Positions 25,366 to 38,692 of a stretch of 64,000 nt of DNA are shown here, in pieces. The notes beneath the pieces are model-generated. The model ran no database searches, was not told the DNA's origin, and was given only the letters and a program-made list of their open reading frames with translations. The translations under genes and the position numbers were made by a program. This DNA is from Fimbriiglobus ruber (GTDB lineage: Bacteria > Planctomycetota > Planctomycetia > Gemmatales > Gemmataceae): the NCBI RefSeq assembly GCF_002197845.1, contig NZ_NIDE01000008.1:62001-126000 (forward strand), read 5' to 3'. Position 1 is the first letter of the stretch. The number at the start of each line of letters is the position of its first letter.

Positions 25366-26469
25366 TGTCACCTTTAATATATTGAGAAATGACGATCGGG
25401 TTCTCTCATAACCACGGATGGTTACCGCATCCTATGGACACGACTCCTCCCGCGCCCTTCGTTGAGGCCTTCCGCACCTTGGTGGACCCGCGCCGCCCGG
25501 GGCGGACGTTGGCTCACAACTTGCACGAGATTCTGACCATCGCCCTGTGCGCGGCCATCGGCGGGGCCAACGATTGGGTCGCCGTCGAAACGTTCGGCCG
25601 GGCCAAGATCGGGTGGTTCCGGCGGTTCCTCCCACTGGTCCACGGGATCCCGTCCCACGACACTTTCGGGCGGGTGTTTGCCCATCTCAAACCGGCCGCG
25701 TTTCAGGCGTGCTTCGGTCAATGGATCGCCGACGTGTGCGGGAAACTCGGACGCGCGCACATCGCGATCGATGGCAAGCGGTTGGCCGGATCGGAGGACG
25801 CCGGGGCCGGGGTCACGGCACTCCACTTGGTCAGCGCGTGGGCCACCGATGCCCGCCTGAGTCTCGGCCAAGTGGCCGTCGACGACAAGTCGAACGAGAT
25901 CACCGCGATCCCGAAGTTGTTGGAATTGATTGAGATCTCGGGGGCGTTGGTGAGTATCGACGCCATGGGCTGCCAGAAGGAGATCGCCACCACGATCCGT
26001 GCCGAGGGGGCGATTACCTGCTCGCGGTAAAGGACAATCAACCCCATCTGCGCGCGGATCTCGGGGCTCTGTTTGATCACGCCTTGGAGCAGGAGTTCGC
26101 GTCGGGTACGTGGGACGGGTTTGCCCAGGAGAAGACGACTCGGGGTCGGGAGGAACTGCGGCAATGTTGGGTGCTGACGGACGTGGACGAGATCCGGAAG
26201 GGGGTCCGGGATTACGCATTGTGGAAGGACCTCACGAGTGTGATCGTGGTGGTCTCGGAGCGTGGGGAGAAGGGGAAGAGCCAGACCGAGACGCGCTTTT
26301 ACATCAGTAGTCGGGTCGCCTCGGCAGTTCGCCGGGTGGGCGCGGAATCATTGGGGCATTGAGAACCCCCAGCCAGACGACTGGCGAAGCAACAACTTGT
26401 GCGAGGTCGGGGGGACCGGTTACGATCGCACTCGAGGCCCTTCTGGCGCTGGCCGCGTGGTGCGACCAG

Positions 26470-26676
26470 CGCCCCGGCCACGGAGGCACCCCATGTCCGA
26501 CAACGACCCCGTCCTCGGTCCCCCCGTCGCTAGCCCCTCCGGCGGCGATCTGGGCGCAACTCCCGCCCGAGCGCCGGCGGCAACTCCAGCGACTCCTCGC
26601 CGACCTACTCGCCCGGCCAATTCTGACCGATGTGCCCCCACTACGGGAGGCGCGTCATGACCGCCACCCCGCGTGA
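26470..26676 (+). CDS. Small accessory protein upstream of the serine recombinase
   Basis: The frame encoding WAQLPPERRRQLQRLLADLL and then ARPILTDVPPLREARHDRHP ends at TGA 26676, overlapping the recombinase start by 20 bases. Short helical proteins of this type regularly precede this class of recombinase in planctomycetes. The start is uncertain. The only ATG nearby (26493) is in a different frame (MSDNDPVLGPP), so either a non-ATG start is used or the gene has a frameshift near 26530. No function is assigned. Confidence 0.45.
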   Translation, partial: RPGHGGTPCPTTTPSSVPPSLAPPAAIWAQLPPERRRQLQRLLADLLARPILTDVPPLREARHDRHPA

Positions 26677-28795
26677 TCTCTCGCCTTCCCCCAAGGTCCG
26701 ACCGTGGCACCTCGACCGCGGGGCGATCGTCTACGTCCGGCAATCCACCCCGCAACAGGTCGCCGACCACCAGGAATCGACGGCCCGACAGTATGCCCTC
26801 ACCGATCGTGCGAGCGCGCTCGGTTGGACCCGTGAGCGGGTGACCGTCATCGACGACGACCTGGGCAAGAGCGGCCAGTCGATCGAGGGGCGGCCGGGGT
26901 TCCAGCGCTTGTTGGCCGAGGTCGCCCTCGATCGCATCGGCCTGATCCTCGGGCTCGAGATGAGTCGACGGGCCCGGTCGTGCAAGGACGGGCACCAACT
27001 GCTGGAGTTGTGCGCCCGGTTCCGCGTTCTGCTGGCCGACGCCGACGGCGTGTTCGATCCGACCGACCATTCGGATCGCCTCCTGCTCGGGTTGCACGGG
27101 ATGATGAATGAGGCCGAACTGCACGTCCTCAAACAGCGGATGCACCAGGGGAAGTTGAATAAAGCCCGCCGGGGTGAGTTGATCGTGTCCGTCCCGGTCG
27201 GTTACCTCAAGCACCCGTCCGGGCAGGTCACCCTCGATCCCGACGAGCAGGCCCAGGGCGTCGTCCGGTTGATCTTTGACGAGTTCGACCGGCAGGGCAC
27301 CGTCCACGGAATCCTTCGCCACCTGATCGCCCACGGGATCCGACTCCCGGTGCGCTCGACCGCCGGCGGGAGCGGCGGACCGTTGCAATGGCGGCCACCG
27401 GGCCGGGAGACGATCCGCCAGATCCTCCGCCACCCGATCTACGCGGGGGCGTACCGGTACGGGCACCGGCCGACCGACCCGCGGAGGCAGACGGCGGGAC
27501 ATCCCAAGAGTGGTCGGAACTCCGGCCTGGCGGCGGATGAGTGCCTCGTGTTCCTCAGGGATCGATTCCCGGCGTACATCAGTTGGGAGCGGTTCGAGGC
27601 GAACCAACTGCGGCTCGCGGCGAACCGATCGCGGGCGGGGTCGCCCGGGGCGATTCGGAACGGGACCGCCCTCCTGGCCGGGGTGGTACGGTGCGGGCGG
27701 TGCGGCAAGCGAATGTACGTCCGGTATACCCGGACGGGGCGACCGTCGTACGTGTGCAGCACCCTGCGGTCCGACTACGGGCTGCCCCTGTGCCAATCGA
27801 CTCCGGCCGCGGACATCGAGACGTGGGTGGCCGAGCAGGTGCTGTCGGCGTTGCAACCGGCCGCCCTGGATGCGAGTCTGACGGCCGCGGCCGCCGTCGA
27901 GGAGCAACGCCGGCAACTGGTCCGGCACTGGGAGCAACGGATCGAGCGGGCGCGGTACGAGGCGGATCGGGCGGGACGCCAGTACCACGCCTGTGAGCCG
28001 GAGAACCGGCTGGTGGCCCGCACCCTGGAGCAGCGGTGGGACGAGTTACTCCGGGAGGTCGCGCGGCTGGAAGCGGAGTTCGATCGCGTCCGCCGAACCC
28101 AACCGCGCGTCCTGGGGGAGGCCGACCGGGACCGCGTCCGGCAGTTGGCCGAACATGTGCCGGCGGTGTGGCGGGCGTCGACCACGACACCGGCGGACCG
28201 GCGGCAGATCGTTCGACTCCTGATCGACACGGTCGTGGTGACGGTCGACCCGACCGGCGACCGGGCCGCGATTCGCGTCGAGTGGTCCGGTGGGGCCGTC
28301 CAGCAGCAGACGGTCCACCGCCCGGTGCAAGGATACCGGCAACAGCGGGATTGGCCGCAGTTGTCCGCCCGGTTGATCGCGCTCCACGAACAGAATCGGA
28401 CGCCGGCCGAGATCGCCACCATTCTCCAGGAGGCCGGGTTCCGACCCCCGAAACGGGCGACCGGGTTTACGGCCGGAATGGTGCGGCGGTTAGTGGACGA
28501 TCTGGGGGTGCGGCCGCGGGTGTCGCGAGTCCCCGACGAGGCAGGTCCGCTGACAGAAGGCGAGTGGTGGTTGCACGAGTTGGCTCGCCACCTGGGCGTG
28601 TCGCCGTACACCTTGCACGGGTGGCGGACGAAGGGATGGTTGCATGCCCGCCAAGTCGGCGGGCGGGGCGGCCCGTGGGCCGTGTGGGCGGGTGGCACGG
28701 AGGTCGACCGGTTGCGTGCGCTCAAGGAATGCCCGCGGGTCTGGGCCAATCGGGATCGGCTGGCGGCGTTGCGCGTGCCGACGGTACGTGCGTAA
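26657..28795 (+). CDS. Large serine recombinase
   Basis: 712 residues. GGAGG six bases before ATG 26657 fixes the start. The N-terminal resolvase domain has AIVYVRQSTPQQ with nucleophile Ser30, then GRPGFQRLLAEV and GLEMSRRARS. A 'recombinase' domain follows (DRQGTVHGILRHLIAHGI, TIRQILRHPIYAGAY). Next is a zinc ribbon (CGRCGKRMY...YVCSTLRSDYGLPLC) near residues 345-375, a long coiled coil (about 410-480), and a C-terminal helix-turn-helix region (LARHLGVSPYTLHGWRTKGW). All expected parts of a large serine integrase/transposase are present and the frame is intact, so this is the likely mover of the surrounding element. Confidence 0.93.
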   Translation: MTATPRDLSPSPKVRPWHLDRGAIVYVRQSTPQQVADHQESTARQYALTDRASALGWTRERVTVIDDDLGKSGQSIEGRPGFQRLLAEVALDRIGLILGLEMSRRARSCKDGHQLLELCARFRVLLADADGVFDPTDHSDRLLLGLHGMMNEAELHVLKQRMHQGKLNKARRGELIVSVPVGYLKHPSGQVTLDPDEQAQGVVRLIFDEFDRQGTVHGILRHLIAHGIRLPVRSTAGGSGGPLQWRPPGRETIRQILRHPIYAGAYRYGHRPTDPRRQTAGHPKSGRNSGLAADECLVFLRDRFPAYISWERFEANQLRLAANRSRAGSPGAIRNGTALLAGVVRCGRCGKRMYVRYTRTGRPSYVCSTLRSDYGLPLCQSTPAADIETWVAEQVLSALQPAALDASLTAAAAVEEQRRQLVRHWEQRIERARYEADRAGRQYHACEPENRLVARTLEQRWDELLREVARLEAEFDRVRRTQPRVLGEADRDRVRQLAEHVPAVWRASTTTPADRRQIVRLLIDTVVVTVDPTGDRAAIRVEWSGGAVQQQTVHRPVQGYRQQRDWPQLSARLIALHEQNRTPAEIATILQEAGFRPPKRATGFTAGMVRRLVDDLGVRPRVSRVPDEAGPLTEGEWWLHELARHLGVSPYTLHGWRTKGWLHARQVGGRGGPWAVWAGGTEVDRLRALKECPRVWANRDRLAALRVPTVRA

Positions 28796-28802
28796 TGGCT
28801 TG

Positions 28803-28845
28803 GCGGGGTCCGGTCATCGTCACGGTGTCGATGACCGGACCCCGC
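28803..28845 (+). terminator. 17-bp-stem hairpin after the serine recombinase
   Basis: Arms 28803-28819 and 28829-28845 (GCGGGGTCCGGTCATCG and its exact complement) enclose a 9-base loop. It begins 7 bases after the recombinase stop. No U-run follows, so termination or protection from read-through into the host is inferred. It could also be part of the att region. Confidence 0.6.
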
Positions 28846-29062
28846 ACAACTTGTAACTTGGAGGTCAGTGTGACAGGCCAATCGAAAATCAACTCCATTG
28901 GGTTCTCGATGTGGTGTTTCGGGAAGATGCGAGTCGGACGCAATCGGGACACGCGGGGGCGAATCTGGCCCTGATCCGTCGGGTGTTGGTGTCGTTGCTC
29001 CGTCGCGTTCCCGGGAAAGAAACCTTACCGAGTAAGATCCTAAAAGCCGCTTGGGACGAAGA

Positions 29063-30358
29063 TTATTTGCTGAAAGTACTCCAGGCTATCCCAGAATCAT
29101 AGTGCGTGAGCCCTGCCGGCGCCCGCAACGCCCGCACGCCGCTCTTCAACTGGGCGTGCAGGTTCTCCTGGTGGCACCGGTCGTTGGCCGAGAACACAAT
29201 CGCGTCCGCCGACCACTCCCGCTCGTTGGTGATGTAAAAGAAGTAACGCACGTCATCGAACAGCGCCGCCTCGCCTTTCGCGCGGGTGATGTTCTTGCGG
29301 ATCACCACCATCCGGTACTTCTGGCGGCAGGCGGTGGGCTGATACTCGAACTCGGCGATGTCTTCCGAGTCCAAACGGAGCGTCTCGTACTCCCGCTCCG
29401 TCACGATCCTGGCCTTGACGTTTTCCGGCGTCCGCCGCGGTTGCGTGTTCACGTGATAACGGGCGGGGCGGGTCAGCCGCCGCCAGGCGTGGTCCGGGAG
29501 TTCCTCGGCTTTCCGCACCAGAGTGGGCACGGCATCGTAACCGAAAAGGAACCGCGTCTTGCGGATGGCATTCCAGCCATCCAGATACTGGGTCTGCGAG
29601 AAATCGGTGTCGCCCCGCAAGAGGACCGTGCGAAAACCGGCCTCGAGGCACAACACCAGCGAGCGGTTGACTTCCCGGGCCGCGCCCTCGTGCGACGGTC
29701 GATTCCCCGGACGATTCACGATGCTGAGGACCTCCCCGGTCTCGGCCAGCGAAACGACCAGCGGGTGATAACCCCAGGTGCCGTCGTAGGCGATGTCCAT
29801 CCCGTCCTTGCACTGACCGGTGGTCCCGACGAGGGTACCGTCCATGTCGATCGTCGCGCAGTCGAAGAACGACTCGGGTTGCTCGGCCCAGACGCGCCGG
29901 CGAACCTCGTTAATCGCGTCGATCAGCGCTTCGACGTCGGACGCCAAGAAGCGGCGGCAGAAGTCGCCGGCGGTGGTGGGGTCGGGGATGCGTCGCGCGT
30001 CCAGGGCGTTGAGGAAGGTCTCGTCGTTGCGGAGGAGTTCGAGGTCTTGAAGGCAGGTGCCGCCGCAGAGCGGGTTGTAGGCGAGGGTGAGGACGTGATC
30101 GGATTCGTGATACGGGACGTGGAATTTGAGCAGATGAAGTTTTTGGTCGATGGTCTTGGCGAGCCCGAATCGTTGACCCAGCGCGTGGATGAGGCCGATG
30201 CCACCGCAGTGGATGGCCTGGGCTTTGTCGGAGACCTCATAGTGGATGTTGCGGGCTTTGAGCACGGGCTCGGGGCTGAGCGGATTGCGCGTTTGATCGA
30301 GTCGGCGATCGATGCGGGCCTTGCCTTTTTGGAACCAGCGGCGGAAGATAGGTTTCAC
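29063..30358 (-). pseudogene. IS1380-family transposase, C terminus lost
   Basis: From GTG 30358 (MKPIFRRWFQKGKARIDRR) the frame is intact. It contains HYEVSDKAQAIHCGGIGLIH, PYHESDHVLTLAYNPLCGGT, RIPDPTTAGDFCRRF, ATIDMDGTLVGTTG, NRPGNRPSHEGAAR and LRGDTDFSQTQYLDGW. Then come FDDVRYFFYITN and NLHAQLKSGVRALRAPAG. These are the DDE core and signature blocks of IS1380. After APAG the family continues for roughly 90 more residues, but here the ISAs1 end takes over and the frame stops 17 codons later. The Tyr/Trp-rich C-terminal domain is missing, so it is non-functional. Confidence 0.9.
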
Positions 30359-30359
30359 T

Positions 30360-30434
30360 TGAAATCCTTCGTGTTTTCCGGTGGTTGTGGACTCTGCAAC
30401 CCTACAAACACCGGAAAACACGAAGGATTTCAAG
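30360..30434. repeat. 25-bp perfect inverted repeat upstream of the IS1380 transposase
   Basis: TTGAAATCCTTCGTGTTTTC and its continuation CGGTG (about 30360-30383) are repeated in inverse orientation at about 30410-30434. The roughly 26-base spacer itself contains a small hairpin (GGTTG...CAACC). It sits where the IS terminus is expected, and the 5' part of the palindrome is translatable in frame with the transposase. Confidence 0.8.
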
Positions 30435-30568: not shown

Positions 30569-33073
30569 CTATTGGTACGGGGCTTGCCACCTTCCGTTCC
30601 ATCCGAACTGCAGCCCCCGCAGGAACTGTTCCCACTCGGTGAGCGTGCGCGACGGCGGGTACGGTATGGGACGGATCGGTACTTCTGTCCCTGCGCCCGA
30701 CACCAGGGACACTTGACCGTCCGCCCGGATCTGCCCGATCCGTACCGGGAGCCACGCGTGCCGTGTGTCCGGGTCGATCGTCACCCGCCCCCGTGGGCCG
30801 TCGAACTGCCGACCCCGCAACGAGCCCAGGACTGCTGTGGGATCGACCGTCCCCGCGCCGGTCGCGGCCTGTGCCCACAGATGCACTCCGCAGTACGCGC
30901 CCGCCATCGGGTCCGACACCACGCGGCCCTCCCCGTACCGGCTCCGGAACGTGTCGACGAACGCGCGGCTCTCCGGCCGGTCCACCGTTTGGAAATACGC
31001 AGCCGCCAGGTAGTCCCCGGCCAGCGCCGCCGGGTTGAGCCCCTCGACCTCGCTCTCCGCGATGCTCACCGACAGCGTCGGCAACCGCTCGGCCGTCATC
31101 CCCGCCGCCCGCAGTGCGCGGAAGAAGTGGAAGTTGGTGCCCCCGTTGAGCGTGTTGACGATCGCGTCCGGCGCGCACACCTTGATCCGCTCAATCACCC
31201 CGGCGACGTCGGGCGAGCCGAGCGGGATGAACGACTCCCCGACTACCGCCACGTCCGGCAACTCCCGGACCCGGTCCCGGATGATCTCGTGGGCTGTGCG
31301 GGGGAACACGTAGTCCGAACCGACCAGGAACAACTTCTTCTTCCCCAACTTCCCGGTGAGGAAGTCGATGGCCGGGATCAGTTGCTGGTTCGGAGCCAGG
31401 CCCAGATAGACCACACGCAACGACTGCTCCAACCCCTCGTATTGCACCGGGTAGAATAGGAGCCCCCGGTTTCGCTCGAACACCGGGCGGACGGCCTTTC
31501 GGCTGGCACTGGTCCAGCAGCCGAACACCGCCACGGCCTTGTCTTCGGACAACAACTTCTCGGCCAGCCGGGCGAACTCTTCCGGGTCGGACCGCCCGTC
31601 AACGATGACCGGTTTCACCGGCCGGCCGAGTACCCCGCCCGCCGCGTTGACCTCTTCGATCGCCAACAGGGTGGCGTCCACAACCGGGTTCTCGCTCACC
31701 GCCATCGTGCCGCTTTGCGAGTGCAAGATCCCGACCACCACCGGTTCGGCCGGTCCAACACCGACCTCCGGAACCGGCTGTCCGCCCTTCTTTCCGAAGG
31801 CGAGTAAACTGACCACCACAAGAGCCACGCCGACCGCGACCAAACCGATCCCGACACTCACCATCCGCCCCCGTTGCCATGCTCCCGGGGACACCAGAGC
31901 GGGCGCGGCCGGGGGCGTAACCGGCCCCCTCGGAGCAGGCGTGGGCATCCCGCTCTCGGGCTGTGTGTCGAAAGTTGACGATCCACCGGACAGGTTGAAG
32001 TTGACGATTTCGTAGGATTGGGTGTCGGAAAATGCGGAATCCGGGCGGGTCGATGGTTGCTGTCTTGTCGTCCCACTGAAGACTCCGGACGGGCGAACCT
32101 GGGGCGATGCCTCGTGGGCGCGCGTCGCCGCGAGAGCGCCGAGCCGCGCGATCACCTCGGCGGCCGAGCCGGGTCGGTCCTCCGGAGCCTTGGCCATCAG
32201 TTGGGCGGCCAGCGCGGCCAGTTCCGGGGGAACTGCGGGGTTGACCGTTGTGAGCGGTCGCGGAGTGTGGTTGGCCAGGGCCATCAGGACAGCCATCGTG
32301 GATCCACCGGGGAAGGCCAGCTCCCCGGACAGCATCGTGTAGAGTACGCACCCGAGACTGAACAGGTCCGCGCGGGGATCGACCGGCAACCCGCCCGCTT
32401 GCTCCGGAGCCATGAAGTGCGGGGTGCCGACAACGACACCGGCGGCCGTCAGTTGCGACCCGGCCCCGGTTTCGCGGACCAAGCCGAGGTCGAGGACGCG
32501 AACCCGATGGAACGTGCTCCCCGACTGGTCCGCCTCCAGCCATAGGTTGGCCGGCTTGATGTCCCGGTGGACCAGCCCTTTGTCGTGGACAGCCGCCAGT
32601 CCGGCGGCCGCCTGAGCGGCAATGGTGACCGCCTCAGCCACCGGTAGCCGTCCCGCACGCGCGAGGCGGGCGTCAAGTGGCTCGCCGCGGAGCAGTTGCA
32701 TGGCCAGGAACGGCACGTCGCCGTCCTGCTCGACCTGATAGACAGTGACGACGTGGTCGGAGGCGAGTAACGCCGCGGCTCGCGCTTCATTCAGAAACCG
32801 TGTCCTGTTGGCCAGTAAAGCGGACAGTTCCGGGCGCATGACCTTCAGGGCGACCGGGCGCTGGAGTTGGGTGTCCTCGGCTTCAAACACCATCCCCATC
32901 CCGCCGATTCCGATCAGGCGGAGGATTCGGTAGTGGGCCAGCCAGCCGATTTCGTCCGGGCCGAGCGGCGGGCGGAGGAAGGAAAAGTCGGGGAGAGGCT
33001 TAAAGTACGCCGTGCTGTCGGACGCGCCGAGGAGGTGCATGTGCGTCTGATAGCCAGTCCGGTCGGGTGCCAT
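30569..33073 (-). CDS. Transmembrane Ser/Thr kinase fused to a UrtA-like urea/amide-binding domain
   Basis: 834 residues. Three consecutive ATGs exist, and the last (33073) has ideal spacing from GGGGAG. The N-terminal cytoplasmic kinase covers about 48-315: GIGGMG loop, VALK lysine, VHRDIKPAN catalytic loop, and a DLG in place of DFG (VLDLGLV). APE is MAPEQ. A Ser/Thr/Pro-rich linker is followed by one membrane helix (about 405-428, VSVGIGLVAVGVALVVVSLL). The exported part (about 445-834) matches ABC-type urea/short-amide binding proteins: LHSQSGTMAVSENPVVDA, AVFGCWTSASRKAVRPVFE, LLFYPVQYEGLEQS and APNQQLIPAIDFL. A receptor kinase sensing urea, amide or similar solutes is inferred. Confidence 0.9.
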   Translation of the reverse strand: MAPDRTGYQTHMHLLGASDSTAYFKPLPDFSFLRPPLGPDEIGWLAHYRILRLIGIGGMGMVFEAEDTQLQRPVALKVMRPELSALLANRTRFLNEARAAALLASDHVVTVYQVEQDGDVPFLAMQLLRGEPLDARLARAGRLPVAEAVTIAAQAAAGLAAVHDKGLVHRDIKPANLWLEADQSGSTFHRVRVLDLGLVRETGAGSQLTAAGVVVGTPHFMAPEQAGGLPVDPRADLFSLGCVLYTMLSGELAFPGGSTMAVLMALANHTPRPLTTVNPAVPPELAALAAQLMAKAPEDRPGSAAEVIARLGALAATRAHEASPQVRPSGVFSGTTRQQPSTRPDSAFSDTQSYEIVNFNLSGGSSTFDTQPESGMPTPAPRGPVTPPAAPALVSPGAWQRGRMVSVGIGLVAVGVALVVVSLLAFGKKGGQPVPEVGVGPAEPVVVGILHSQSGTMAVSENPVVDATLLAIEEVNAAGGVLGRPVKPVIVDGRSDPEEFARLAEKLLSEDKAVAVFGCWTSASRKAVRPVFERNRGLLFYPVQYEGLEQSLRVVYLGLAPNQQLIPAIDFLTGKLGKKKLFLVGSDYVFPRTAHEIIRDRVRELPDVAVVGESFIPLGSPDVAGVIERIKVCAPDAIVNTLNGGTNFHFFRALRAAGMTAERLPTLSVSIAESEVEGLNPAALAGDYLAAAYFQTVDRPESRAFVDTFRSRYGEGRVVSDPMAGAYCGVHLWAQAATGAGTVDPTAVLGSLRGRQFDGPRGRVTIDPDTRHAWLPVRIGQIRADGQVSLVSGAGTEVPIRPIPYPPSRTLTEWEQFLRGLQFGWNGRWQAPYQ

Positions 33074-33810
33074 CATCACTCCCCGGTAGACCGGAGGTAG
33101 AACCGAATCACCGGCAATCTAGTATGGAAAAGGCGTTTGCTTCGCGCGCCCCGCCATGTTTTATCACAGCCGCCTCAACGCTCGTCTGGTGACTGAATTT
33201 TCGCACCCGCACACATTTCCAACGTCTCAGCTCAACGACAAATACCCAGGCTGTCGGCCCGTCCAGTCGACACCCGAAATCCGGAGTGCGATCGTAAAGC
33301 CCGTTTTGGACGTGTGCGCGAGCCAGTCGGGAGATGTCTCGTTGCAAACTGATTGAAACAGAGACTTCTCGCTCCACGCGGCCGATCCGTGTGATTTTTC
33401 GGTCGTGGGAACGGCGGGTAGCCCCGTGCCCGGGGTACGCTGCGCGAACTCCGGGCTGTGCTGTGTAACGCTTTCAGCGTATCCAATCCTGTGACGCCAA
33501 ATGGGCCGACAATTAGGACCGTGGCGAGGTGGGTTTGTACGCTGAAAGCGTTACACAGCACAGCCCGGAGTTCACGCAGCGTACCCCGGGCGAACAGGCT
33601 GCTGCGTTGGATACGGTTATGCCAGAGTAGATATTTGGCATTCCCCCTTCGGAATGAGGTTCGTGCCAGTCTCCCTAATGACTTTCTCATCCGCGGTGCC
33701 TTATCTACCTTTGCGGTCACGCGGAACCAGAACACACGTTTCGCTCTGACCGATACCCCATCCGCCCACCGACTTGGTTTTGTCACCAGACGTCACCAGA
33801 GGAACGACTC
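33074..33810. other. Intergenic interval holding a long palindrome
   Basis: About 740 bases between divergent genes, with no supported coding frame. It presumably contains both promoters. The centre is the 53-bp-arm inverted repeat listed at 33429-33590. Confidence 0.6.
33429..33590. repeat. Long inverted repeat, 53-bp arms
   Basis: Arms 33429-33481 and 33538-33590 are complementary at 52 of 53 positions; the inner ends read CTTTCAGCGTA and TACGCTGAAAG. The spacer is 56 bases. The mismatch is G versus A in the AACTCCGG-flanking part. Too long for a terminator; a MITE-like remnant or large RNA hairpin is possible. Confidence 0.9.
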
Positions 33811-34649: not shown

Positions 34650-34927
34650 GGACGATACCGCCCGAGGGAGTTGTTTGCTCGGCCACGTCTTCACACAATT
34701 GAAATGATTGCCAGGCTATTCCCGTCGAGTAGAATTGTGGACATTCGATTGAAAATCGGCGTGAGTAATGAACAAGCCGTCGACGAGAAGGGATAAATTG
34801 TTCGCAAATGAACGCTCCTCCGATTCGAATTGACCAATAGATAGCGGTGCGGACAAAAGCCGGGCTACGCTCCCAGAGTGACGCCCGGAAGGGACGAGCC
34901 TTTGTTACCCGACCCGGAGTTCCGGCG
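34650..34927. other. Short AT-richer intergenic interval before the vWA operon
   Basis: 278 bases without a gene. It presumably carries the promoter for the vWA-PP2C-kinase operon. Confidence 0.4.
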
Positions 34928-35626
34928 ATGATCGAGCAAACGGCGTTCGGAGCCGATACACAGCCCCAGTTCGGAACGAACAGTTTCGCCGAGAACCCCG
35001 AACCACGCTGCCCGTGCTTACTGTTACTCGACATCTCGGGATCTATGAATGGTCCCCCGATCAACGAGCTGAACGCCGGGCTCGTGACCTTCAAGGATTG
35101 TCTGGCTGCCGACGCGCTCGCGATGAAGCGAATCGAAATTGCCATCGTGACGTTCGGTGGAACTGTTCAAACGGCTTGCGATTTCACGACCATAGAAGGC
35201 TTTCACCCGCCAACTCTTACGGCCGGCGGAGACACACCGATGGGAACCGCGATCGCCCAGGCGGTTAGCATGATCCGGCAGCGTAAAGACACATACAAAG
35301 CCCACGGCATCTCTTATTACCGCCCGTGGATTTTCCTGATTACGGATGGTGGACCCACTGATGCTTGGGCGTCCGCGGCGGCTCAGGTCAAACAGGGCGA
35401 AGCGTCCAAATCGTTCCTCTTTTTCTCGGTCGGAGTCGCAGGTGCCAATTTCGACGTGCTGAAACAGATTTCGACACGTGAACCTCTACAGTTGCAAGGC
35501 CTCGAATTTAAGAAGTTATTCCTCTGGCTGTCCCAGTCACAATCATCCGTCTCCCGTTCCAACCCTGGCGACGGCGTTCCGCTTACAGACCCGACCGGCC
35601 CTAAAGGGTGGGCGTCAACGATTTGA
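34928..35626 (+). CDS. vWA domain protein, TerY/YegL-like
   Basis: 232 residues from ATG 34928, with GGAG eight to nine bases upstream; in-frame sequence further upstream is unlikely to be coding. The von Willebrand A fold is clear: [12 protein letters not shown] supplies the MIDAS DxSxS (Asp35, Ser37, Ser39), [15 protein letters not shown] supplies the Thr, and [13 protein letters not shown] supplies the Asp. It is followed 11 bp later by a PP2C phosphatase and then a kinase. In the TerY-P triad the vWA protein is proposed to be the substrate or scaffold of the kinase/phosphatase pair. That role is inferred from context. Confidence 0.88.
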
Positions 35627-35637
35627 GGCTCGCCCGG

Positions 35638-36432
35638 ATGCCATCTCCCTGGAAGGTGCTGGCGAACAGCGTCGTCGGCACCTCGCACGAGCGGATCGGC
35701 GAACGCTGTCAAGACTACGCGACCGCCCGACTCGTCGAGGCGGGTGAGGTGTCGTCGCTCATTCTCGTTTGCGCTGACGGGGCGGGAAGTGCGTCCCGGG
35801 CCGAGGCGGGGGCGAAATTAGCCTGTCACGAGTTCCTTTCCGTGGCCGCCAGTGCCTTGACTGGCGGTTTATCCGTTTCCGCAATCACGTTTGAAATAGC
35901 CCGCGACTGGTGTGACCGAGCCCGGCGCCGCCTCAGTCTGGAAGCCTGCGTTTGTGGGGCGGAACTGCGCGACTTCTCATGCACCTTGCTGGCCGCGGTC
36001 GTATCCGACCGGCACGCGGTATTCATGCAGATCGGCGACGGCGCGATTGTTTATCGGGAAGGCGATGGCTATCGAACGGCGTTCTGGCCCGAGAACGGGG
36101 AGTACGCGAACGTCACGTACTTCCTCACCGGCCCGGATTTCGAATCGCGGTTGAACGTCAAGCTGCTGGAGTTCGGACCCGACGAGGTTGCCCTTTTCAC
36201 GGACGGCCTGCAGCCGCTCGCACTCCACTACGCCACAAAGACGGTCCACGCCCCGTTTTTCGACCCGATGTTCGCAACCTTGCGGCGGGAGCCCGACCCG
36301 GACACCCTGCGGGCTCCTCTGAAGCAGTTCCTGGCGTCCAAGCCCGTCGTCGAGCGAACGGACGACGACAAAACCTTAATCCTGGCCACCCGCCGGCTGC
36401 CGGAGCATGACCACGCGCCCCCTCGTCAATAA
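35638..36432 (+). CDS. PP2C-family Ser/Thr phosphatase (TerY-P triad, YegK-like)
   Basis: 264 residues from ATG 35638, with GAGG nine bases upstream. Metal-binding PP2C motifs are visible: LVCADGAGSASRAEAGA (Asp47-Gly48), MQIGDGAIVYREG, ALFTDGLQPLAL and a C-terminal ERTDDDKTLILA. The N terminus SVVGTSHERIGERCQDYA is the usual start of this subgroup, with His-x6-CQD. There is no signal peptide; cytoplasmic. It overlaps the kinase gene by 26 bases. It should remove phosphates placed by the downstream kinase, probably on the vWA protein or a shared target. Confidence 0.9.
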   Translation: MPSPWKVLANSVVGTSHERIGERCQDYATARLVEAGEVSSLILVCADGAGSASRAEAGAKLACHEFLSVAASALTGGLSVSAITFEIARDWCDRARRRLSLEACVCGAELRDFSCTLLAAVVSDRHAVFMQIGDGAIVYREGDGYRTAFWPENGEYANVTYFLTGPDFESRLNVKLLEFGPDEVALFTDGLQPLALHYATKTVHAPFFDPMFATLRREPDPDTLRAPLKQFLASKPVVERTDDDKTLILATRRLPEHDHAPPRQ

Positions 36433-38692
36433 CCTCGGCCAACCGGTCGCCCTCGGGACGCTAGTCGGCAAGGGAGGCGAAGGGAGTGTCTACGAAGTCG
36501 CGGGCAGTCCCAGCGCGGTGGCCAAGATTTACGACCCATCCATGCCCGACCGCTCGGCCAAATTCCTGGCCATGGCTTCGCTCGCGAAAAAGGAAATGTA
36601 TCGTGTGGCCGCCTGGCCGCTCGCGACGCTCCACGACAGACCCGGCGGCCCGGCCGTCGGGTTCGTGATGCACAAGGTCACGGGTTGCAAGGACATCCAC
36701 ATCCTCTACAGCCCCGCCCAGCGGAAAACACTCTTCCCGCACGCGGACTGGAAATTCCTGATTCACACGGCCGCGAACTGTGCGGCTGGGTTCGACGTGA
36801 TTCACGGTCAGGGCGTGGTGATCGGGGACGTCAACCAGTCGAATTTCATGGTATCGAAAGACGGCCTGGTGACGTTCATTGACTGCGACTCGTTTCAAAT
36901 CCAGGCCGGTGGACGCACGCATTTCTGCGAGGTGGGCGTGCCGCCGTTCACCCCGCCCGAGTTGCAAGGCCTGCCCTTCCGCGGCCTGACTCGGACAGTT
37001 AACCACGACCGATTCGGCCTCGCCGTCCTGATTTTTCACCTGCTCTTTATGGGTCGCCACCCGTTCGCCGGCCGGTACAGCGGCCAGGGCGACATGCCGA
37101 TCGAGCAGGCGATCCGAGAATACAGGTTCCCGTACAGCCCGCACGCCGGCAGCTACCAGATGCTGCCCCCACTGCACAGCGTTCCGTTCGCCGCCCTCTC
37201 GCCCCAACTTCAGAGCCTGTTCGAGAAGGCGTTCCGGACCACTGGACCGACAGCAGTACGCCCCGCGCCGGCCGAATGGTTCACGGCTTTGAAAGCCTTT
37301 TTCGACACCCTGCGCCCGTGTACGCAAGACCCGGGGCACCAGACGCCGTCGCACGTATCGGGCTGCATTTGGTGCGACCTCGTGAAGCAGGGGGCACCGA
37401 ACTTCTTCGTTTCCGTCACGTTCACCGCAGCCCGGGGTAGCGGCCCCGCGTTCATTTTGGCGACGGTTTGGGCGCGAATCGAAGCCGTCCCGCGGCCGAA
37501 TGTCACATACGTCAGACCTGCCCCGATGCGGCGCACCCCGAACCCGTGGTCTGCCACCTTGCCGCAGTCGGTGCCCCCGGCCATCGCCCGCCCGACGCTG
37601 TTGACGCACCCGCCGTCGCCGCCACGGCCCAACCTGCCCCCGCCCCAGTACCAGCGCAAGCGTATCCCGTACAGTCACGGTCAGCGGGTCACGGGTTACG
37701 TGGCCATCGCCTTCCTGACCTTTCTGATCCCTGTCGCCATTTTGGGGACGATGATCGGGCAAGCCGCTTTTGGCCGCCCGACCCTCGTTGCGGCGGTACT
37801 GGCGTTGATCGATTTGCTGTTGCTCGCGGCGAGCGGCGTTCGCTGGATGATCCTCGAACTGGACCGCCGAGCCACGGAACACCGGCAAAATGAACAGTAC
37901 GAGCAAGAGCGTGAGGAACGGGACGAGATCGCCCGGCAACAGCGCGACGAATGGTATCGCCAGCTAAAGGGCCGCCAGGCCGACGCCGAGCGGCAGTACA
38001 ACGAGCTGACCCAGCGGTGGCGGGCGGCGACCACCGTGGCTGCCGAGGAAGTCCGCCGACGCAAGTCGCGATTCCAGGCGGCGATGGCGAACCTGGAACA
38101 GTCGACAAAAGCCTGGGCCGAGGTGTCCGCGAAATGCGCGGCGGAGTTCGATCATAAGAAGGCGCAATTGACCGCGTTTCGGCAAAAGCACACGGAACTC
38201 GCGCCGCGGTATCAGAGCGAACAGCAACGACTCGTGGCCCAGGCTCACGAGATGCAAAAAATGCTTTACCTGCAAAGCCAATACATTGCCGACCACGACA
38301 TCCCGGACATCGGCGACGCGCGTAAATCGACGCTCGCCTTGTTCGGGATCGAGACGGCGTTCGACGTCGAGCGGGACGCGATTTTTTCGGTGCCGGGATT
38401 CAAGGAAAAGCTGACGGGCCGGCTGCTGACGTGGCGGGCGGGCGTGGAAGCCAGATTCGCTTTCAATGCCATCGTCGGCGTCCCCCCGCACGAACAGCAG
38501 GCGCTCGATTTCAAGTTTTTCCAGGAACGGCAGGTGATCGAAACGCACCTGCTTCAAGGCGAGAGCGAGTTGAAAGACATCGCCTCGCGAGCAACAAAAG
38601 AACTCGGTCGTATCAGCGACAGCATGACTCTCTTCCAGCGCGAGTGCGAACAGGCGGACGCCGATCTGGCCGTTATTCCGCACGGCTTCTGA
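36407..38692 (+). CDS. YegI-like protein kinase with coiled coil and helix-hairpin-helix domain
   Basis: 761 residues. An unusual kinase domain covers about 15-310: loop VGKGGEGSVYEV, Lys40 in VAKIYDP, catalytic loop VIGDVNQSNFMV (Asp141, Asn146) in place of HRDxxxxN, and FIDCDSFQI (Asp159/161) in place of DFG. This variant set is typical of the YegI group. Two membrane segments follow near 425-475 (AIAFLTFLIPVAILGTMIG; LVAAVLALIDLLLLAAS). A long charged coiled coil (about 485-620) and a helix-hairpin-helix region (DIGDARKSTLALFGIETAFD, then FSVPGFKEKL) end the protein. It forms an operon with the vWA and PP2C genes. Confidence 0.9.
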   Translation: MTTRPLVNNLGQPVALGTLVGKGGEGSVYEVAGSPSAVAKIYDPSMPDRSAKFLAMASLAKKEMYRVAAWPLATLHDRPGGPAVGFVMHKVTGCKDIHILYSPAQRKTLFPHADWKFLIHTAANCAAGFDVIHGQGVVIGDVNQSNFMVSKDGLVTFIDCDSFQIQAGGRTHFCEVGVPPFTPPELQGLPFRGLTRTVNHDRFGLAVLIFHLLFMGRHPFAGRYSGQGDMPIEQAIREYRFPYSPHAGSYQMLPPLHSVPFAALSPQLQSLFEKAFRTTGPTAVRPAPAEWFTALKAFFDTLRPCTQDPGHQTPSHVSGCIWCDLVKQGAPNFFVSVTFTAARGSGPAFILATVWARIEAVPRPNVTYVRPAPMRRTPNPWSATLPQSVPPAIARPTLLTHPPSPPRPNLPPPQYQRKRIPYSHGQRVTGYVAIAFLTFLIPVAILGTMIGQAAFGRPTLVAAVLALIDLLLLAASGVRWMILELDRRATEHRQNEQYEQEREERDEIARQQRDEWYRQLKGRQADAERQYNELTQRWRAATTVAAEEVRRRKSRFQAAMANLEQSTKAWAEVSAKCAAEFDHKKAQLTAFRQKHTELAPRYQSEQQRLVAQAHEMQKMLYLQSQYIADHDIPDIGDARKSTLALFGIETAFDVERDAIFSVPGFKEKLTGRLLTWRAGVEARFAFNAIVGVPPHEQQALDFKFFQERQVIETHLLQGESELKDIASRATKELGRISDSMTLFQRECEQADADLAVIPHGF

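Follow-up and report, generated by a model that had tools for sequence, protein, structure and literature searches.

A gene on the minus strand of a 64-kb window of the Fimbriiglobus ruber genome (the whole stretch of DNA analysed here) encodes a single-pass receptor Ser/Thr kinase with a UrtA-derived ectodomain, as seen from its domains, its single membrane helix and its fold. The ectodomain carries all residues known to contact urea in UrtA, and we favor, with moderate confidence, the reading that this outer, urea-family venus-flytrap binds urea or a nearly identical small diamide and reports it to the cell.

Domain architecture of the receptor

The sequence-only reading that preceded this analysis had described a Ser/Thr kinase joined through one membrane helix to a UrtA-like ectodomain, an assignment borne out by the Pfam domains and the sole hydrophobic segment of the protein (Table 1). 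Translation may start at the ATG at 33073 or at a GTG at 33079, and the frame is stop-free for 834 aa. The kinase domain contains the Gly loop, VAIK Lys, alpha-C Glu, HRD, Asn, DxG Asp, APE, alpha-F Asp and Arg of Hanks-type Ser/Thr kinases; relative to two full-length relatives (L084 and L082), these elements differ only in details of the Gly loop and in the first APE residue. The kinase thus carries the residues of an active enzyme. It is not a PASTA-type PknB, as the corresponding model (NF033483) reached 252.5 bits against a cut-off of 450 and covered the kinase and linker only. The DLG motif, pointed out in the sequence-only reading, turned out to be ordinary: among the 40 kinases in which the motif was legible, 35 carry DFG and five DLG, and DLG was therefore discarded as the mark of an odd kinase. 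Three of the DLG kinases are other fusions, two of them from relatives in the Gemmataceae and the third from a Phycisphaerales bacterium.

The ectodomain, in which the UrtA motif blocks quoted in the sequence-only reading are present, matches Peripla_BP_5 (PF13433) over the whole domain (E 3e-134; gathering cut-off 27 bits; profile positions 3-359 of 363). Its similarity to UrtA is far above chance: the UrtA equivalog model TIGR03407 (NCBIfam) scored 431.5 bits, which is below the curated cut-off of 492.75 but leaves the homology clear. While a structure model of the full-length protein was poor (pLDDT 55.6, from an alignment of three sequences only), AlphaFold2 modelled the ectodomain well from 31 sequences. 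The nearest solved structure to this model is 8TG1 (Z 53.2), titled as a Caldicellulosiruptor periplasmic urea-binding protein; three cyanobacterial UrtA-urea complexes match at Z about 52, and AmiC at Z about 49. The fold alone does not part urea binders from amide binders; the pocket residues do.

Table 1. Features of the receptor kinase gene in the 64-kb window.
Feature	Coordinates	Strand	Evidence
Whole gene: 834 aa receptor Ser/Thr kinase with UrtA-like ectodomain	30569..33073	-	Open frame; full-length relatives L084 (48%), L082 (43%)
Kinase domain, residues 48-304: GIGGMGMV loop, K77, E96, HRDIKPAN (169-176), DLG (195-197), activation-loop T209, APE, D236, R300	32162..32932	-	PF00069 (Pkinase), 141 bits; catalytic residues invariant relative to L084 and L082
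Single transmembrane helix, residues about 405-428	31790..31861	-	Kyte-Doolittle maximum 2.76; sole such segment in the protein
UrtA-like ligand-binding ectodomain, residues 436-834 (PF13433 at 447-807)	30572..31768	-	PF13433, 448 bits; AlphaFold2 mean pLDDT 90.2; best PDB matches 8tg1, 8hic, 7s6e, 7s6f
First-lobe pocket residues W520, S522, Y541, Q544, E546 (UrtA W120, S122, Y141, Q144, E146)	31436..31516	-	Alignment to 8HIC UrtA; PMC10392092
Pocket residues Y588, F590 (UrtA Y190, F192)	31304..31312	-	Alignment to 8HIC UrtA; PMC10392092
Pocket residues N643, S670 (UrtA N246, S274)	31064..31147	-	Alignment to 8HIC UrtA; PMC10392092

Ligand pocket and fused relatives

In the urea-bound UrtA of Prochlorococcus (8HIC), nine residues lie near the ligand, and mutation of S122, Q144, Y190, N246 or W120 strongly lowers or abolishes urea binding (PMC10392092). 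We set the published numbering onto the 8HIC chain by the sole offset that fits all nine residues. A check for pocket loss, proposed together with the sequence-only reading, found the ligand-contacting residues retained: in the alignment to 8HIC, the window protein is identical to UrtA at nine of nine positions (Table 1). AmiC, whose structures hold acetamide or butyramide, reads Tyr, Ser, Tyr, Pro, Glu, Tyr, Tyr, Val and Thr when aligned at these positions. The two types are best parted by Q144 (Gln544 here; Pro in AmiC, Ala in two chemoreceptor-linked planctomycete homologues) and N246 (Asn643 here; Val in AmiC and in these two homologues), and the window protein, compared with AmiC as the example of AmiC/FmdD-type binders, has no amide-type pocket. 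Of the ligands named in the sequence-only reading, urea or short amides, this urea-type pocket fits the former and makes the latter less likely.

To gather fused relatives, we searched related genomes with the window protein and the phylum with PF13433, and added two metagenome-assembled genomes (MAGs) from a genome collection. The sequence-only reading had suggested looking for the same fusion in other planctomycetes, and it does occur there: with 24 kinase-UrtA-like fusions in total, the architecture is not unique to the window gene, and the relatives do not show the general break between kinase and binding domain that would have spoken against the reading. The fusions from a Fimbriiglobus MAG (L084) and a Phycisphaerales MAG (L082) match the window protein at 48% and 43%, respectively, over the full length. 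RefSeq has a product name that combines a Ser/Thr kinase with an ABC substrate-binding protein, so the bare architecture has probably been annotated already. In the papers searched, a set with most subscription journals outside it, we found no description of the fusion or its urea-type pocket, nor of the proposed sensory branch and the kinase exchange set out below. Beyond the planctomycetes, a search of 72,556 plasmid records gave no match spanning 80% of the window protein.

With L178 left out, the pocket is complete at all nine positions in 13 fusions besides that of the window, and nine fusions have changed pockets. The 13 share about 36-48% overall identity with UrtA and lie on several kinase lineages; that they keep the nine residues at such identities argues for selection on a urea-type pocket. 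Nor is this conservation a mere by-product of overall conservation, since the two chemoreceptor-linked planctomycete homologues are unchanged at 54-55 of 58 other invariant positions yet have lost 3-4 pocket residues, whereas one fusion (L064, 7096-9603) has lost 11 of the 58 and kept the pocket complete. The transporter UrtAs fetched for comparison share the pattern WSYQEY[FY]NS as well, although their conservation of Y141, Q144 and E146 is partly by construction because the fetch pattern itself included these residues.

Could urea be merely the historical ligand, and the fusions a diversifying family of orphan receptors for other small molecules? The nine changed pockets point this way—among them WSFTEYYDA in a same-genome paralogue (G000:C8:568403), one of the two fusions that F. 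ruber carries—as does the shortage of confident urea-catabolic enzymes in most genomes with an intact pocket (see below). Against the intact pockets of the 13 other fusions, however, we regard this explanation as unlikely. A slightly smaller chance falls to an amide receptor, in which formamide, acetamide or similar aliphatic amides would be sensed as by AmiC/FmdD-type proteins and signalled via the kinase. The structural family is the same (AmiC-acetamide, 1pea, matches the ectodomain model at Z 49.4), the C-terminal tail of the window protein can be aligned with AmiC nearly to the end, homologous transport systems beside amidases are known, and the SIMBAL paper cautions that signatures of the urea type may take in related amides (PMC3098086); but both of the best type-separating positions are urea-like. 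Still further behind comes the notion of a structural or protein-protein module, with the kinase signalling independently of small molecules: sensor kinases beside binding-protein genes are not always activated by those proteins (PMC11113362), and no output gene is conserved nearby, yet a pure scaffold would not be expected to keep a complete buried ligand pocket, and we deem this improbable.

Several further features of the homologues deserve mention. At two loci (L075:5884-10765 and L077:4321-9790), unfused UrtA-like binding proteins whose pocket is of the Ala/Val kind are encoded beside methyl-accepting chemotaxis proteins, two of these with a dCache domain, and represent candidate amide chemosensing pairs. 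Two kinase fusions, L082:2880-5294 and L063:6414-8717 (the latter with a changed pocket), have no detectable membrane helix and may be cytoplasmic receptors, as AmiC is. In six fusions (L054, L055, L060, L061 and L062 among them), an SRR motif stands right before the membrane helix, reminiscent of a Tat signal-anchor; a Tat-signal origin of the helix was dropped, since of the 20 unfused kinases from these genomes in which a membrane segment is clear, 4 show such a motif as well. Inspection of all 24 loci, up to 20 kb, revealed no conserved gene neighborhood, and hence no target or output is indicated.

A signalling-linked branch of the UrtA family

The fusions carry kinase domains from several lineages, intermixed with unfused kinases of the same genomes. 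A tree that forces these domains together as a single clade is worse by 75.5 log units (p-AU 0.00135, for a group named after the tree had been seen), whereas a single clade of the fusion ectodomains is not rejected (p-AU 0.69). Similar ectodomains therefore sit on several kinase lineages.

An ectodomain tree of 66 rows, comprising intact-pocket fusions, UrtB-linked UrtAs and others and drawn without an outgroup root, placed the Ser/Thr kinase-fused ectodomains on one side of a branch (support 98/97). A 29-row set (100/98) unites them with histidine-kinase-paired and chemoreceptor-paired proteins and two planctomycete histidine-kinase fusions, opposite a 37-row clade (100/98) of UrtB-linked transporters, two free planctomycete UrtAs and one cyanobacterial group of histidine-kinase fusions. 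The window ectodomain thus groups with signalling-linked homologues, outside the UrtB-linked transporter clade. By gene context, the free proteins adjoin either UrtB or a histidine kinase, except for four with neither and one with both. The free proteins most closely related to the window ectodomain have their genes immediately upstream of a histidine kinase gene, and Pfam confirms seven of these kinases, six of them with dCache domains; adjacency of binding-protein and sensor-kinase genes is no proof of joint function (PMC11113362).

Against this background we raise, tentatively, a broader possibility: the urea-binding-protein family may have a sensory branch apart from the transporters, driving Ser/Thr kinases when fused, histidine kinases when paired or fused, and chemoreceptors with altered pockets. 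In planctomycetes, one ectodomain lineage would have been joined to several kinase lineages and would sense urea even in organisms unable to catabolize it, so that urea would serve as a cue from the environment and not as a nutrient.

UrtA-like domains are also fused N-terminally to histidine kinases in both cyanobacteria (L087, L089, L090, L092 and L097) and planctomycetes (L066, L070 and L072 complete the set), and these proteins keep the full urea-type pocket except L066, in which Phe192 is replaced by Tyr.

How does the receptor compare with known systems? With UrtA (8HIC, 7S6E, 7S6F; TIGR03407) and 8TG1, the window protein has in common the fold (Z 52-53), 42-49% identity and the nine urea residues, but its domain is fused C-terminally to a kinase and helix, lacks a permease partner and falls outside the UrtB-linked clade. 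It resembles AmiC of Pseudomonas aeruginosa (1PEA, 1QNL, 1QO0) in fold (Z 49), in a regulatory rather than transport role and in its C-terminal tail. It differs by having Gln and Asn at the pocket positions that are Pro and Val in AmiC, which is itself a stand-alone cytoplasmic protein acting on AmiR. The UrtA-like proteins paired with histidine kinases (L083, L086, L088, L091, L093, L098, L107), which lie on the same side of the tree, and those fused to them in cyanobacteria share the urea-type pocket and the link to a sensor kinase; they differ in having a histidine kinase as output, reached mostly via a separate dCache/HAMP receptor. In the GlnH-GlnX-PknG system of Corynebacterium and Mycobacterium, an extracellular solute-binding protein controls a Ser/Thr kinase (summarized in PMC11032199), with an amino acid as ligand and three separate proteins, whereas receptor and kinase here form one chain. 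A Gemmataceae genome encodes about 100 kinases, and the transmembrane Ser/Thr kinases of planctomycetes that carry WD40, TPR or FGE-sulfatase ectodomains share with the window protein a cytoplasmic N-terminal Pkinase domain, one helix and a periplasmic C-terminal domain (PMC11032199); a solute-binding-protein ectodomain is not mentioned in the text of that survey. Planctomycete receptor Ser/Thr kinases with varied ectodomains and solute-binding proteins feeding kinases are already known (PMC11032199).

Urea physiology, proposed mechanism and genomic surroundings

The sequence-only reading had remarked that no urea transporter genes are nearby. None was seen in the annotated flanks of the gene within the 64-kb window, but on the same contig, about 190 kb off, lies a urease cluster with a UT-type urea transporter, ureA, ureB, ureC, ureF and a UreG-type gene. 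A search for UrtB found no gene over the cut-off in the F. ruber genome, and thus no permease partner for a UrtA; free UrtA is likewise absent from it. A urease operon with a UT transporter, together with the absence of free UrtA and of any urtB over the cut-off, fits sensing: F. ruber probably uses urea that is imported by another route, which leaves the UrtA-like domain free to be a sensor. A continued role in serving an ABC permease, the kinase being an add-on, could draw on the domain's clear homology to UrtA, but is highly improbable given that no urtB exceeds the cut-off, the position outside the transporter clade and the tether to the membrane via the N-terminal kinase linker. A few kilobases downstream of the urease cluster lies another Ser/Thr kinase gene (L182:15289-17697; G000:C8:291288-293696).

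A general purpose in nitrogen sensing, as the sequence-only reading had envisaged, is not supported. Of the 12 genomes that encode a fusion with an intact pocket, nine gave no confident urease hit, a marginal fragment of 22.6 bits in G317 being disregarded. Urea carboxylase, considered as an alternative urea route and rejected, was found over the cut-off in none of 59 relatives, including the eight intact-pocket genomes covered by this search, which left four of family f4 outside. Within the family, urease accompanies an intact-pocket fusion in 3/8 genomes as compared to 3/29 others, a difference that is not significant (Fisher p 0.10).

For the favored reading—a receptor for urea or a near-identical small diamide—we envisage the following mechanism. 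With the kinase in the cytoplasm and the two-lobed venus-flytrap domain outside, the ligand, presumably urea, would be held between the lobes. Lobe closure might then change the pairing or orientation of the kinase domains, which could lead to autophosphorylation in the activation loop, in the region of T209, and to phosphorylation of cytoplasmic targets. The outcome would be direct urea sensing by phosphorylation, and in F. ruber the receptor would report external urea without a part in its uptake. If true, a single bacterial protein would directly connect a small molecule outside the cell with Ser/Thr phosphorylation. Of the roughly 100 kinases that a Gemmataceae genome encodes, most lack a known signal, and for the window kinase there is now a ligand hypothesis precise to single residues, in a host that carries a urease operon. 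Moreover, similar ectodomains repeatedly joined to different kinases offer natural comparisons for the coupling of ligand binding to the kinase.

As to the surroundings of the gene, a VWA protein, a PP2C phosphatase and a kinase-like protein of 761 aa that matches no Pfam family are encoded in a row on the plus strand (34847-38692), an arrangement that looks like a VWA-phosphatase-kinase signalling triad and is not conserved near the other fusions. Between the window gene and a dienelactone hydrolase gene, we noted a near-perfect (98%) 54-nt inverted repeat with a 56-nt spacer (33428-33591). Given its diverged copies at well over a dozen other genome sites, it belongs to a dispersed palindromic repeat family, possibly a MITE. 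On the other side (25389-30433), a DDE transposase piece, a large serine recombinase and a second DDE transposase, the last ending 135 bases from the window gene, place the gene in a stretch rich in mobile elements.
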